From Tessaracoccus timonensis (GTDB lineage: Bacteria; Actinomycetota; Actinomycetes; Propionibacteriales; Propionibacteriaceae), in NCBI RefSeq assembly GCF_900343145.1, contig NZ_LT996886.1, positions 124,001-188,000 on the forward strand: a DNA stretch of 64,000 bases, written 5' to 3'. The notes below the pieces were generated by a model. That model had not been told where the DNA came from, did not search any database, and saw only the letters and a list, made by a program, of their open reading frames with translations. Made by a program: the position numbers and the translations under genes. How positions within the stretch are numbered: position 1 is the stretch's first letter; each line of letters begins with the position of its first letter. This document shows positions 13,745-20,326 of the stretch, piece by piece.

Positions 13745-15166
13745 ATGTTTATCGACGCCGCCGAGCTGATCCGCTACCTCAAGGACGAGGACGTCGAAAC
13801 CGTCGACGTCCGATTCTGCGATCTGCCCGGCGTGATGCAGCACTTCACGGTGCCTGCAGCGTCCTTCGACGAGCAGGTATTCGAGGACGGCCTCGGCTTC
13901 GACGGCTCATCCATCACTGGCTTTCAGAAGATCCATGAGTCGGACATGACACTGCTGCCGGATCCGACGACGGCCTACCTCGATCCCTTCCGTCGGTCCA
14001 AGACGCTCAACGTGAACTTCTTCGTGCACGATCCGCTCACCAAAGAGCCGTATTCGCGCGATCCGCGCAACATCGCGCGTAAAGCCGAGGCCTATCTCCT
14101 CTCGACGGGCATCGCCAACACGGCGTTCTTCGCGCCCGAGGCCGAGTTCTATGTGTTCGACGACATTCGCTTCGACGTGTCTGCGAACAGCTCGTACTAC
14201 CACATTGATTCAGAGGCCGGCGCCTGGAATACGGGACGCGTCGAGGACGGCGGTAACCGGGGTTACAAGGTGAAATACAAGGGCGGCTACTTCCCCGTCT
14301 CCCCCGTCGACCATTTTGGGGACCTCCGTGACGACATTGTGCGCCACATGGGCGAGGCGGGGCTCGTCGTGGAGCGTGCCCACCACGAGGTCGGCACCGC
14401 GGGGCAGGCGGAAATCAACTGGCGGTTCGACACGCTGCTCACTGCCGCCGACGATGTCATGAAGTTCAAATACCTCGTGAAGAACACCGCCTGGCAAGCA
14501 GGGAAAACCGCAACCTTCATGCCAAAGCCCATCTTCGGCGACAACGGATCGGGCATGCACTGCCACATGTCGTTGTGGAACGACGACCAGCCACTGTTCT
14601 ACGACGAGCACGGCTACGCCGGGCTGTCCGACGTCGCGCGTTGGTACATCGGCGGCGTGCTCCACCACGCGCCCGCGCTGCTGGCGTTCACCAACCCATC
14701 GGTGAACTCCTACCACCGTCTGGTGCCTGGGTTCGAGGCGCCGGTGAATCTGGTCTACTCGCAGCGCAACCGCTCGGCGTGCATCCGGATTCCCATCACT
14801 GGGTCGAACCCCAAGGCGAAGCGCGTCGAGTTCCGCTGCCCCGACCCGTCGTCGAACCCCTACCTGGCCTTTTCGGCGATGCTGCTGGCTGGCCTCGACG
14901 GCATCCAGAACCGCACTGAGCCGCTCGATCCCGTCGACAAAGACCTCTACGAGCTTCCCCCGGAGGAACACGCCCAGGTTCCGACGGTGCCGACGAGCCT
15001 GCCCGCCGCGATCGACGCGCTTGAAGCAGACCGCGACTTCCTGCTCGCAGGCGACGTGTTTACCGACGATCTCCTCGACACCTGGGTCGAGCTCAAGCGC
15101 GCAGAGGTGACCGCGATTGCGCAGCGCCCTCACCCCTACGAGTTCGAGCTGTACTACGCGCTCTGA
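13745..15166 (+). CDS. glnA: Glutamine synthetase type I (adenylylatable)
   Basis: 473 aa. It condenses ammonia and glutamate to glutamine as a dodecamer in the cytoplasm. It has the beta-Grasp start ([15 protein letters not shown]), the ATP/metal motifs ([22 protein letters not shown]) and the glutamate-flap region. Tyr402 in [11 protein letters not shown] is the conserved adenylylation site, matching the glnE gene at 37.3-40.2 kb. Its 3' end overlaps the convergent histidine kinase gene by 13 bp. Confidence 0.97.
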
Positions 15167-16296
15167 GGTGGCTGGGCTACGGGGAGAGACGCACTTAGCA
15201 CCCACTGCCCAGCATGCCTGGCAGCGGTGAGTTCCCCGCCAACCTGTGCGACGCGCTCGCGGAGCCCCTGCAACCCCACCCCTGCGGAGGGGGACTCGTT
15301 CCCAGCAGCGTTGCGAAATGTCACCTGGATTCCTCTGCCCTCTGCGACGAGCCGCGCCCGCACCTCGCACGCCGAGCGTCGCTGCGCATGCCGAAGGATG
15401 TTCGTCGTAGCTTCCAGCATGAAGTACCGAAGGACAGCGCTCTGCGCCTGAGCGAGGTCTTCGAGAAGTTCCGCTCCTTCGACGTCCACCTCAAACCCAG
15501 CTTCACGCAGCGTGGTAGTCAGCCTTACAAGCAAATCAGATAGCTTCTCGTCAGTGCCGTGATCAGACTGGCGGCTATCCCTGAGGAGCTGCACTAATTC
15601 ACGCAGTTCCTGCACAGCATTGCTCGTGTACCGGCGAACGGCCTTCAGCGCCGTAGTCAGCTCTTCGACGTCATCGCTGCCATCTGCCGCCTCGAGCTGC
15701 AGGGAGATACTGGCCAAATTATGCCCAACGAGATCGTGCAGTTCCCTCGCAAGTGACGCTCGCTCATCACGACGTAACGCTTCCAGCGCGGCAGAGAGCT
15801 GCTGGGCGCTCTGGCGACGGGCTGCTTCCGCGCGCATTATCCGTCGGATCATGAGTCCGATGAGTGCCCCGATAACCCCCATAGCCAGGGTCATCACCGT
15901 CCGAACGGACATGTGCTCCGCGGGGTTCCCGATTGCAAATAGCACACCGCCTAGTGCACTCAGCGCCACTGCCTTTCTGCCCGACATCGAGATAAACATG
16001 CTCATACACACAGGAAAGAGGGTGAACTGAGCAAGCGACATATCTCCCAGCGCAATTCCGAAAACGAGCGAGAGCAGGAAAGCGATCACGCATGCACCTG
16101 AATGCCAAGGGGATGTTGAAATCGCTATGCATGCCGTCAACAGCCCTCCCCAATACACCACCGGGTCTTCTGGTTGGCCTACGACATGCACTACCCACCA
16201 CAGTTCCATGAGCAGTAACCCCGTGCCCGCAATGGGCAGCAACACCCTCGCTGCTTGGAGTGTCCGGACCCCCAGCGGGGTAAGCGGCCTCACCAT
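15154..16296 (-). CDS. Two-component sensor histidine kinase (HisKA_3)
   Basis: 380 aa. About five membrane segments occupy residues 15-150 with almost no extracytoplasmic domain. The dimerisation box [11 protein letters not shown] gives phospho-acceptor His187. The N-box is [11 protein letters not shown] and the ATP lid [11 protein letters not shown]. This is a NarL/DesK-type kinase, expected to phosphorylate the regulator at 17922-18581. Before the IS insertion the kinase ATG lay inside the regulator's last codons. The IS now separates them by 1.6 kb, and the kinase ATG survives only because it is inside the target duplication. Confidence 0.92.
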
Positions 16297-16303
16297 GCGA
16301 TCA
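16290..16303. repeat. Target site duplication, left copy
   Basis: TCACCATGCGATCA directly precedes the left inverted repeat and is repeated exactly after the right one. It contains the histidine kinase start codon on the minus strand. Confidence 0.95.
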
Positions 16304-17921
16304 CCTGAGTCGTGCAGGTTGGGTGTGGTTTTGAGGGTTTGTGTTGGGGATGTGCTTGTCAGGGTGGGTTAGGTTTCTTGTTTTGGGTCACTAATTGCGG
16401 GGCTAGGATTGGGTGGTGGGCCAGTTTCTTCGTCGAGTGAAGACCTCTTCTGGTGCGACCGCGGTGCAAATCATGGTCAAGCAGGGCCGGCGCAACAAGC
16501 TGGTGGAGCATGTCGGCTCGGCCCATAACGAGCAGGAACTCGCCGCGCTGGAAGCTGAGGCTCGTCGCAAGATGGTCCCGCAGACGCAGGATGTGTTGCC
16601 GCTGGACCCGGTGGCGGCCCGGGCCGGGAGGCCCACCGTGGTCTCGCAGCGTAGTCAGTTGTTGTGGGATGTGCTGGCCACAGCGTACAAGGTGCTTGGT
16701 TTCGATCAGCTTAAGGATGCGGCGTTCCAGCAGCTTGTGCTGGGCAGGATCATCGAGCCGACCTCGAAGGCCGACACGATCCGGGTCCTTGACGAGCTTG
16801 GCATCGAACACGTCAGCCGGCGGACACTGTTCGCCAGTCTCGCACGCGCCCGGGAACGCGACTATCGCACCCAGATCGCCAGTGCTTGTTTCGACCACAG
16901 CCATGCCCGAGGCGGGCTGAGTTTGGTGCTCTACGACGTGACCACGTTGTACTTCGAGGCGGAGAAGGAAGACCAGCTGCGCAAGGTTGGCTACTCGAAG
17001 GAACGCCGGGTTGATCCGCAGATCGTGGTCGGGCTGCTGGTCGACCGCTGCGGGTTCCCACTGCAGATCGGCTGCTTCGAGGGCAACAAGGCCGAAACAC
17101 TGACCCTGCTGCCGATCATCGAACGCTTCCAGGACCTGCATGGGTTGGCTGATCTCGTGGTGGTCGCCGATGCCGGGATGCTGTCAGCGATGAACCTCAC
17201 CGGGCTGGAGGATGCCGGGTTACAGTTCATCGTCGGCTCCAGGATCACCAAAGCCCCTTACGATCTGGCCGATCACTTCGCCCGTCACGGCGACGCGTTC
17301 AGCGATGGGCAGATCATCGAAACCTCGACCACGATGGGCCGGGACAAGCAGCGCCGCAGGATGGTCTACCAGTACTCCCGGAAACGGTTCGTACGCGACA
17401 ACAAGACCCTCAACCAGCAGCGCAACCGCGCCCTGTCCATCATCGAGGGCGCAACCCGCCCGAAGAAGGCCCGATTCCTCAAGACCACCGGCCAGGCCAC
17501 CAGCTTCGACCACAACGCTTACGACAAGGCCGTCAGCCTCGCCGGGTTGAAAGGCTACGTCACCAACATCCCGACAAACCAGATGACCGGCGCGCAGGTA
17601 ATCGCCGCCTACCACGACCTCTGGCGAGTCGAGCAAAGCTTTCGAATGTCCAAATCCGACCTCGACGCCCGCCCGATCTTCCACCACACCCGCGACGCGA
17701 TCGAAGCCCACCTCGACATCGTCTTCGCCGCCCTCGCGATCGCCCGCTACCTCCAAGACCAAACCGGCTGGAGCATCAAACGACTCGTCCGAACCCTACG
17801 CCCGCTACGCGAGGTCACCATCAACATCGCCGGCCACGAACTCACCGCCGAACCCACCATCGACCCCAACACCCAGAACATCATCACCAAAATCCTGGGT
17901 CACTAACCTGCACGACTCAGG
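16304..17921. mobile_element. Insertion sequence, IS1634 family (IS1549-like), 1618 bp
   Basis: Perfect 17-bp terminal inverted repeats lie at 16304-16320 (CCTGAGTCGTGCAGGTT) and 17905-17921, flanked by a 14-bp direct target duplication. One intact transposase gene is inside. Long and variable target duplications are a known trait of this family. Intact ends and an intact transposase indicate a recent, possibly active insertion. It lies in the overlap of a regulator and a kinase gene. Confidence 0.95.
16413..17906 (+). CDS. IS1634-family DDE transposase
   Basis: 497 aa, full length, from tandem GTG codons. The first catalytic Asp is in LVLYDVTTLYFEAEKED, the second in VVVADAGMLS, and the Glu in the C-terminal RVEQSFRMSKSDL motif. 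GYSKERRVDPQIVVGLLVD is diagnostic of the family. It is transcribed opposite to the interrupted operon and ends just before the right inverted repeat. Confidence 0.95.
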   Translation: MVGQFLRRVKTSSGATAVQIMVKQGRRNKLVEHVGSAHNEQELAALEAEARRKMVPQTQDVLPLDPVAARAGRPTVVSQRSQLLWDVLATAYKVLGFDQLKDAAFQQLVLGRIIEPTSKADTIRVLDELGIEHVSRRTLFASLARARERDYRTQIASACFDHSHARGGLSLVLYDVTTLYFEAEKEDQLRKVGYSKERRVDPQIVVGLLVDRCGFPLQIGCFEGNKAETLTLLPIIERFQDLHGLADLVVVADAGMLSAMNLTGLEDAGLQFIVGSRITKAPYDLADHFARHGDAFSDGQIIETSTTMGRDKQRRRMVYQYSRKRFVRDNKTLNQQRNRALSIIEGATRPKKARFLKTTGQATSFDHNAYDKAVSLAGLKGYVTNIPTNQMTGAQVIAAYHDLWRVEQSFRMSKSDLDARPIFHHTRDAIEAHLDIVFAALAIARYLQDQTGWSIKRLVRTLRPLREVTINIAGHELTAEPTIDPNTQNIITKILGH

Positions 17922-17935
17922 TCACCATGCGATCA
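17922..17935. repeat. Target site duplication, right copy
   Basis: Exact second copy of TCACCATGCGATCA. On the minus strand it supplies the last codons and the TGA stop of the response regulator (IAW-stop). Confidence 0.95.
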
Positions 17936-18581
17936 GGCCAGACTTCGCTGCTGCAATCAATATCTGTGTTCTAGTAGAGACACCGAGCTTGTTCGCAATC
18001 GTACTCACATACTGCTTCACTGTGGACTCCGCCAGGAAGAGACGCTGTGCAATTTGTTTGTTGGTTTCCCCATCACATAGAGCACGGAGTACATCGAGCT
18101 CACGCTGCGAGAGTGTGGCGCCATTTCCTTTCACGGATTGGCTGCCCCTAACGAGCATTCCAGCAATCTCTGGGGAGAGAGGGAGGTCATCCGCCGCAGC
18201 GGCATACAGCGCCCATACCAGCTGCTGCGCTGATGCTGTTTTCAGCAGGTACCCTGCTGCCCCCAGCCGTAAGGCGGTGACCACAAGGAAGCGATCATCA
18301 AAGGCGGTCGAAACCACTACCTTGGTGCGCAATCGGTGAGGTGCCAGGCGTCGCAGGACTTCCAGTCCATCAATTCGAGGCATATGCAGGTCGAGGAGCG
18401 CAATGTCGGGCGCTATATCGATGATGGTTTCGGCTGCTTTCGAGGCATCGTCGATGCTTGCAAGCACCTCAAGGTTTGGAGCATGGCGGTGAAGGATTGT
18501 TCGATAGGCCGCAAGCGTGCTCGTTTCATCGTCGACGAGCACCACCGTGTGGCGGGGCAGCTGAACTGCGCCTGACATCAT
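17922..18581 (-). CDS. Response regulator, NarL/LuxR family
   Basis: 219 aa. The receiver domain (about 12-130) has acidic residues VDDE and the phospho-acceptor Asp64 in ALLDLHMP. The C-terminal LuxR helix-turn-helix (about 155-212) contains LSQRELDVLRALCDGETNKQ and STVKQYVSTIANKLGVS. It overlaps the lipoprotein gene upstream by 4 bp, and originally overlapped the downstream kinase. Its own reading frame and stop survive the IS insertion unchanged. It may act on the palindrome at 20388-20411. Confidence 0.93.
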   Translation of the reverse strand: MMSGAVQLPRHTVVLVDDETSTLAAYRTILHRHAPNLEVLASIDDASKAAETIIDIAPDIALLDLHMPRIDGLEVLRRLAPHRLRTKVVVSTAFDDRFLVVTALRLGAAGYLLKTASAQQLVWALYAAAADDLPLSPEIAGMLVRGSQSVKGNGATLSQRELDVLRALCDGETNKQIAQRLFLAESTVKQYVSTIANKLGVSTRTQILIAAAKSGLIAW

Positions 18582-19690
18582 CTGAGCGCCACCACGGCCG
18601 AGACGTATGCGTCACGCATGTTGCCGGGAACGGTCAGATTATGCTGAAACAACGGTTTCAGCTGTGCTCCCGTGGCATATGCATCAACGTGGAGGCCGTC
18701 GACATCATGATCGCCGAATGCAACCATCAGATCTCCCCGTACTGACAACTGTGCAAGGCCTCGGTCGAGCTGCAGGGTTTCGACTTTCATCGAGGGAAGC
18801 CGAACAACGGACACATGGCGATAGTCGGAAAGAGGACGAACGCTGGGGTTCATCGCTGTGTGTGCGATGTACATTATGCTGTCAGCGCCGTTTGGCACCG
18901 GCGTCAGCCAATACGGTGATGCAGCGGAAAGCTCCGATTGTTCCAGTGCCCCAGTATGCAGATTCAGCCGGTAGAGTTCCCTTGTTTCCTCATTTCGTTG
19001 TTCATCAAACGCACTCGTGAATATGGCGTACTCGCCCACCATAACGGGATTCTGCCAACCGAATGGAGGCACAGGGACCTCATGCTTCCACCGTTCATGC
19101 AGTGTCTCTGGGTCGAGGCGACGCGCGATGAATCTGCGCGGTGATCCATCACCGGTGTGCCAGTCACTCGCAATATCCGTGAACAACACCACAGCATCTT
19201 CGCTCATACCAACCCCCGACGTGCCTTCTTGAGGAAAACGAGCTTCCGCGATAGTGGCACCATCGAGCGAAAAGCGAGCCACATGTGCCACACCGTCCAC
19301 CGTGTCCATCGTGACCACAGCCCCGTCTCCGGCCGTCCACCCAAAGATACCGCTGGCATCGATAGGGATGGTGTTTACCTTGCACTGCTGCGGGTCGAAC
19401 ACAACGATATGGGACTTATCACGTCGCTGGTTGCCGGTAGCGACGGCGACCAATGCATCCCCGTCCCTTTCCATTCCCCGCGAAGGCTGCAAGCCCTGCA
19501 CAGCGATAGCCTCTTCCCACAGCAGCTCCGTGTTGCGAAACAGCTGCAACGTTGCATCACTGGATTCGCTCGACCACAAGACAGCGTGAGTGGCATCCGT
19601 CGGACAGGATTCCGGCATGCGCCAGTGGGAGCACGCGCTCAACGTTACTCCCACCAATACGATCATGGCCGCAGCCACTACTTTGCGCAT
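18578..19690 (-). CDS. Lipoprotein with WD40/PQQ-like beta-propeller
   Basis: 370 aa from the ATG at 19690. A lipoprotein signal peptide ends in TLSAC (Cys about 20). The rest resembles a six- or seven-bladed propeller of repeated strands with Trp/Tyr and Asp-Pro turns, without enzymatic motifs. It sits between an amidase-like gene (5 bp upstream) and the response regulator (4-bp overlap). That makes it a candidate accessory sensor of the two-component system at the outer face of the membrane. The specific family is not recognised. Confidence 0.75.
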   Translation of the reverse strand: MRKVVAAAMIVLVGVTLSACSHWRMPESCPTDATHAVLWSSESSDATLQLFRNTELLWEEAIAVQGLQPSRGMERDGDALVAVATGNQRRDKSHIVVFDPQQCKVNTIPIDASGIFGWTAGDGAVVTMDTVDGVAHVARFSLDGATIAEARFPQEGTSGVGMSEDAVVLFTDIASDWHTGDGSPRRFIARRLDPETLHERWKHEVPVPPFGWQNPVMVGEYAIFTSAFDEQRNEETRELYRLNLHTGALEQSELSAASPYWLTPVPNGADSIMYIAHTAMNPSVRPLSDYRHVSVVRLPSMKVETLQLDRGLAQLSVRGDLMVAFGDHDVDGLHVDAYATGAQLKPLFQHNLTVPGNMRDAYVSAVVALR

Positions 19691-19695
19691 CGATA

Positions 19696-20326
19696 CTATT
19701 TCTTTCTCCACACAATGTGCGTCTTGTTCGTGGTGACGAGATCCATAGGATGAATTGCCGCACCCCATGCCCCAGTGTCAAGATCAATATTAAAGTTGTT
19801 CTTGAACGCCGACCAGACTAGCTGAGAACAGTAAAACTTCTTTTGCGTCACTTTATCAAGGAAATTAAAGTTATACGGTTTTCCATACTGCTTATTGGCC
19901 CAGTCGGCTGCTTTCCTATCTTGGTCCCCAGATGTGGAACGCACAGTAACTCCATACGCTTTCTTCTTGCTTCGATACCAGTCATTACTTCCAGTTACCA
20001 CGCCTTTATCAATCGATTCCACCACCTGTGTGGAATTAAGAATAATACCAGCATGCCCTGTCGGAATAAGATTCTTATACCTATCTGGAGTTACAAGAAT
20101 AACCCCCCTTCCTTCGAGGATACACCCCAACTTCTGTAGATGAAATCACTTCCTCCTTCATACTCTCGGAAATCTGGAACTTATCCGGCACCACTGGATG
20201 GCTATCAGCCGTACGAATCTGCCTCGCCAATTCCTGATCCGCCTGTGTGCCTTCTTCGGCGTAAGCACTCACCCCACCCAACAAGGTAAGGCCAAGCACC
20301 ACGGCAAGTAGCCTCGTTGCCCTCAT
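19696..20326 (-). pseudogene. YiiX/YaeF-like permuted papain-fold amidase, frameshifted at a G6 tract
   Basis: The first frame (20326 to about 20108) encodes a signal peptide (MRATRLLAVVLGLTLLGG...) and ends early after VYPRRKGG. The second frame (to 19696) encodes VILVTPDRYKNL, the catalytic-type His in PTGHAGII and Cys in FYCSQLVW. The His-before-Cys order is that of circularly permuted NlpC/P60 (C92-like) enzymes. Removing one G from the six-G run (20103-20108) joins both parts as RRKGVILVTPDRYKN. The gene is clearly more AT-rich than its surroundings, suggesting transfer. The start has a GAGGAG ribosome-binding site. Intact-but-frameshifted, phase-variable, or sequencing error are all possible. 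Confidence 0.75.

Follow-up and report, generated by a model that had tools for sequence, protein, structure and literature searches.

A response regulator gene and a sensor histidine kinase gene of Tessaracoccus timonensis are separated by an insertion sequence (IS), and both reading frames are intact. The locus raises the question of how an IS can enter the junction of two overlapping genes without costing either of them a codon, and whether such sparing is anything special. The window, by which the whole analysed stretch of 64,000 nucleotides is meant, carries the following features at this locus:

18578 to 19768, minus strand: 396-aa open reading frame (from the list of open reading frames), upstream of the regulator and overlapping its start by 4 nt
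17922 to 18581, minus strand: response regulator of the NarL/LuxR type, 219 aa (profile matches)
17922 to 17935: right copy of the 14-bp duplication, containing the regulator stop (17922 to 17924)
16304 to 17921, plus strand: IS1634-family insertion sequence, 1618 bp, with perfect 17-bp terminal inverted repeats
16413 to 17906, plus strand: transposase, 497 aa from a putative GTG start (NF033559; PF01609 DDE domain)
16290 to 16303: left copy of the 14-bp duplication, containing the kinase ATG (16294 to 16296)
15154 to 16296, minus strand: sensor histidine kinase, HisKA_3, 380 aa (Pfam match)

The element was assigned to the IS1634 family. Its transposase scores 393.8 bits against NF033559 (cut-off 100), with the next families below their own cut-offs, and the DDE domain matches PF01609 in Pfam. 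The first 17 bases of the IS, CCTGAGTCGTGCAGGTT, recur inverted at the opposite end with 0 mismatches. The length of 1618 bp falls within the 1500-2000 bp given for the family in the available text of PMC2266710, where direct repeats of 5-6 bp and a poorly conserved terminal C-----YT are also described. The terminal bases of the element, CCTGAGTC, match C1 and Y7 of this consensus, and position 8 is C, not T. The sequence TCACCATGCGATCA is found at 16290-16303 and at 17922-17935, identical in 14 of 14 positions and directly abutting both IS ends. Since an exact 14-mer at fixed boundaries has a probability of about 4^-14, this agreement is not due to chance. The sequence-only reading, which had proposed an IS1634-type insertion with a 14-bp target duplication, is thus borne out in both respects. 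A search of plasmid records with the IS returned six matches, none with 80% coverage of the element, and only one distant locus (L308) was found with the transposase in viral contigs.

The position of the duplication relative to the two genes explains the intact frames. On the minus strand the 14-mer reads TGATCGCATGGTGA, with the kinase ATG at nucleotides 8-10 and the regulator stop at nucleotides 12-14. The regulator is read as CTG ATC GCA TGG TGA. Of the two TGA triplets in the 14-mer, the first is out of frame and the last serves as the regulator stop. In the uninterrupted order the genes would overlap by the 7 nt ATGGTGA; the insertion has moved the kinase ATG to 1625 nt behind the regulator stop. 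The earlier claim that stop and ATG overlap needs rewording, for the genes do overlap by 7 nt but the two codons have no common bases. That the regulator keeps its stop and the kinase its start was read correctly, each in a copy of the 14-mer. The statement that the duplication restores both genes is better put as preserves: regulator and kinase are each left with one full copy of the gene end concerned.

This argument depends on the kinase ATG being the true start. A protein search returned four close kinase homologues with 95, 93, 83 and 83% identity. Three of them (P0001-P0003) share the N-terminus MVRP, and the fourth has a listed sequence shorter by 7 residues. Three homologues were returned for the regulator, namely P0155 (99% identity; listed without a source and perhaps no independent witness beside the studied genome), P0156 (83%; a protein named after uncultured Tessaracoccus) and P0157 (49%). 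The C-terminus LIAW is common to P0155 and P0156, and P0157 differs. Because the homologues retain the LIAW ending of the regulator and the MVR start of the kinase, the kinase ATG is probably real. An LIAW-stop and an MVR start fit the same ATGGTGA overlap, which, judging from protein ends alone, is therefore probably older than the IS. The description of the insertion as coding-neutral is likewise supported by the shared MVRP start and LIAW end as well as with the intact frames. Relatives free of the IS were sought at the DNA level. With the kinase, 83 stretches in genome contigs matched the search pattern and none was confirmed; among 60 genomes, including the own one, the best other match by E-value has 35% identity. 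With the regulator, the best other match by E-value among 39 genus-level genomes, again including the own one, has 41% identity, and among the matches listed none besides the own one exceeds 43%. The 1040 plasmid records matching the regulator are all below 60% identity.

The surroundings of the gene pair were also inspected. The 396-aa open reading frame at 18578-19768 has no match in Pfam or NCBIfam. Together with the regulator and the kinase (15154-19768) it shows low codon-usage scores against a mixed actinobacterial table, and these genes may therefore be acquired. A gene for a YaeF/YiiX (C92) permuted papain-like amidase lies at 19696-20130, upstream of the two-component genes.

The genome contains three full copies of the IS. 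Two are identical and the third has 1 mismatch, which points to recent insertions. The copies outside the window are:

L010, 3001-5855 (in G000:C1:2399359-2406976): second full copy, 54-bp duplication, at a DUF349 gene
L011, 2747-4888 (in G000:C1:2498362-2505979): third full copy, 5-bp duplication, in a split GNAT gene

All three copies have perfect duplications within differing flanks, and the lengths of 14, 54 and 5 bp may be set against the 5-6 bp AT-rich repeats of the family. The long duplications of 14 and 54 bp stand beside identical copies and so vary in length from copy to copy. The copy with the 54-bp duplication (G000:C1:2402359) lies at the 3′ end of the DUF349 gene, which loses only its last residue: EFTA-stop becomes EFT-stop, the stop being supplied by the IS end. 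The copy with the 5-bp duplication TCAGA (G000:C1:2501362) splits a GNAT acetyltransferase gene, whose two pieces, searched apart, match positions 4-68 and 79-140 of the Acetyltransf_8 profile. Diverged fragments of the same element at G000:C1:783640-784241 (94% identical) and 964555-965055 (88%) point to earlier rounds of transposition.

Duplication lengths were then compared across the family. The elements were taken from the window, stretches of the own genome, the best 80 of 129 relatives as loci, and stretches of further genomes. A total of 161 elements, each matching over at least 380 residues, entered the survey. Of these, 86 distinct insertions were retained, whose ends were recognised and whose duplication measures 4 bp or more. 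The other 75 were dropped because their ends were unrecognised, their inverted repeats matched at under 10 of 17 positions or a duplication was missing, or because they repeated an insertion already counted (L072, L295). The cut on inverted repeats removed L204, which has a 158-bp duplication and 9 of 17 matches. The short-flank loci L126-L201 and L262-L287 were excluded as well, many but not all of them re-entering with longer flanks. The duplications of the 86 insertions fall into two size classes: 22 are exactly 5 bp long, none has 6-12 bp, and 64 have 13-738 bp. The 5-bp duplications have the sequence TCNGA and are not AT-rich (T 0.82, C 0.89, G 0.89, A 0.82; 44 ends). A weaker form of the motif, CG|T[CG]nnA, is seen at the boundaries of long duplications (128 ends). 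TCNGA with at most one mismatch is found at 36 of these 128 ends compared with 5.2% of background positions, and at both ends of only one of the 64 long insertions, where 5.0 would be expected under independence (Fisher p 0.013, exploratory).

On a quick tree of 83 of the 86 transposases, three with fewer than 350 residues being left out, the size classes are clustered: 10 changes are required compared with a shuffled mean of 17.7, and none of 500 shuffles is as low, near-copies contributing to this clustering. One set of 9 rows, which includes a long-branch join flagged as unsure by the tree program, consists of 5-bp insertions only, and one set of 15 rows of long ones only. It was considered whether the length is fixed for each transposase lineage. 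This was rejected, as identical copies belong to both classes despite the clustering. The elements L232, L233 and L234 (0 mismatches) have duplications of 5, 59 and 313 bp, and L061 and L063 (3 mismatches) have 5 and 94 bp. The window element likewise represents both classes with its near-identical copies of 14, 54 and 5 bp.

We tentatively propose, while regarding it as somewhat more doubtful than assured, that one transposase works in two modes. In the concerted mode the ends would be joined with a 5-bp stagger at TCNGA. In the uncoupled mode they would be joined 13 to more than 700 bp apart, one at a TCNGA-like site and the other at a looser site, and strand-displacing synthesis would duplicate the sequence between them. 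The latter mode would, as a by-product, yield insertions after which overlapping or adjacent genes remain intact. Binding of IS1634-family transposases to the beta sliding clamp, stated in the available text of PMC4549789, would suit synthesis-dependent long duplications. A beta-clamp motif in the window transposase itself (QLVLG) was also considered as a link to replication and was dropped as too weak, the pattern occurring in 12 of 83 proteins.

The element resembles systems described before. IS1634 of Mycoplasma mycoides and IS1549 of Mycobacterium smegmatis share with it the transposase family and long, copy-variable duplications; 8-514 bp are given for these two elements in the available text of PMC2266710, which noted in 2008 that a mechanistic model for the variable duplications had yet to be proposed. 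The element differs from IS1634 and IS1549, as described in that text, in that duplications of 5, 14 and 54 bp are found beside near-identical copies and in that the surveyed set has either 5 bp or 13-738 bp, with a gap between. ISGka5 of Geobacillus and ISPfe2 of Paracoccus, also of the IS1634 family, share short duplications with the window element. According to the available text of PMC8024623 and PMC3281130 their duplications have 6 bp, unlike the 5-bp, TCNGA-like ones found here, and in the present case long duplications arise from one and the same element as well. In the titles and abstract openings of the literature searched, we recognised no description of an overlapping stop and start kept through an insertion's own duplication, nor of two classes of duplication length in the IS1634 family. 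The element and its long duplications are already known in kind, and the junction is nothing unusual for an element of a known type.

Whether gene sparing is special was assessed for the 80 of 86 insertions with enough flanking sequence. Genes were called with a simple codon-usage caller, and the expectation was obtained by random placement of duplications of equal length within the same flanks. The gene calls are crude and the counts approximate, two of the three own copies being partly misread: the kinase start was placed too far in, and the copy splitting the GNAT gene was called intergenic. Genes are disrupted in 31 of 80 insertions compared with 50.6 expected (p 7e-6), and 30 insertions are intergenic compared with 14.4 expected. 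The deficit of disruption is seen for the 5-bp class (10 compared with 14.8, n=21) and for the long class (21 compared with 35.8, n=59) and is present at four gene-call thresholds. Genes are saved by the duplication in 16 of 80 insertions (10.7 expected; one-sided p 0.06), and at most 10 codons are lost in 3 of 80 (4.3 expected). Both genes are complete with their ends inside the duplication in 3 of 80 insertions by the caller; the window, with its misplaced kinase start, would be the fourth. Standing insertions are thus found preferentially where they do no harm, in line with what selection would lead one to expect. Sparing by duplication is near the chance level for long duplications, with a mild preference being possible at p 0.06. 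The special character that the sequence-only reading had implied for the sparing finds no support, as the duplications of the family are long and variable and saved genes stand near the level of random placement.

The insertion has created a new sequence in front of the kinase:

16297 to 16306, minus strand: hybrid Shine-Dalgarno sequence, formed by AGG of the IS end, TGATC of the duplication and GC before the kinase ATG (duplex energy)

The 3′ end of the genome's own 16S rRNA is GGATCACCTCCTTTCT. The native sequence upstream of the kinase, GCGAAGTCTGGCCTGATCGC, persists beside the right-hand copy and pairs with it at -8.8 kcal/mol, compared with -13.3 kcal/mol for the insertion-made sequence TGCACGACTCAGGTGATCGC. 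The stronger match arises because the AGG of the IS end, located 7 nt before the kinase ATG, adjoins the TGATC of the duplication, and it is a product of chance. The strength of the new site is matched at 16 of 1675 ATGs in the window and at none of 48 mechanically called gene starts; that of the native site is matched at 188 and 12, respectively. As judged from these energies, the insertion probably did not weaken ribosome binding at the kinase and may have improved it, and we infer that the AGG of the IS end helps kinase translation. Among 172 IS ends of the family, 14 start codons lie inside the duplication at 4-11 nt from the end, two of them in the window; they are ATG or GTG codons with an open frame and mostly unverified gene starts. 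At 11 of them the upstream sequence made by the IS gives stronger pairing than its native counterpart, at 1 equal pairing and at 2 weaker pairing. These counts at most hint that IS ends with AGG can lend a Shine-Dalgarno sequence.

The locus is best explained if an IS1634-family element recently inserted into the 7-nt overlap of regulator and kinase. The two strands of the target would each have received one IS end, at a spacing of 14 bp, and filling in would have duplicated the sequence between. One copy would complete the regulator and the other would start the kinase, and no codon would be lost because the duplicated stretch holds the whole overlap. The sparing would be a by-product of long, variable duplications and of the survival of low-harm insertions, the junction having been neither targeted nor repaired. 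We assign a probability of about 0.85 to this account as a whole, and the junction probably goes back to a single transposition event. If the IS had instead entered between two 14-mers already present as a spaced or tandem repeat, their exact abutment to the IS ends would be hard to understand, as would the perfect duplications of the other two copies in different flanks and of other surveyed insertions. No IS-free DNA relative was found among the genomes searched, which leaves this alternative some room, but we regard it as scarcely credible. It is also very unlikely that the element seeks gene junctions or that insertion at this junction was selected as a beneficial arrangement. Two of the three own copies do lie at gene ends, where they cost little coding sequence or none, and the excess of intergenic insertions (30 compared with 14.4, n=80) would agree with such a preference. 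However, the third own copy splits the GNAT gene, genes are disrupted in 31 of 80 family insertions, the boundary motif CG|T[CG] is not of a stop/start kind, and the copies are too similar for long-term selection to be read from them.

Another reading is compatible with insertion by by-product and concerns its consequences. The insertion may be neutral for codons and not for function, a polar IS that uncouples kinase translation, cuts or rewires transcription and leaves the regulator partly orphaned; we consider the chances of this to be just short of even. The regulator stop and the kinase ATG are 1625 nt apart with the transposase on the opposite strand, and translational coupling of the kinase to the regulator is lost through the IS. 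A transcript reading through from the regulator into the kinase would pass the IS in antisense orientation relative to the transposase. A sigma-70-type scan of 15100-20200, a method that is weak for GC-rich actinobacteria, returned 0 promoter-like sites (1.9 in shuffles). Against a polar effect, none of the four terminator-like sites in this region (3.9 in shuffles) lies within the IS, and the hybrid Shine-Dalgarno match exceeds the native one. Transcription of the kinase may be lowered or otherwise altered by the IS.

Under the favoured account of a by-product insertion, the junction shows that an element with long duplications can insert where two operon genes overlap and yet cost neither a codon. 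The hybrid Shine-Dalgarno sequence is a neat extra. The main lead is the two-class duplication length from one transposase: two length classes from identical or near-identical copies, together with a shared boundary motif, offer a concrete test of the duplication mechanism in the IS1634 family.
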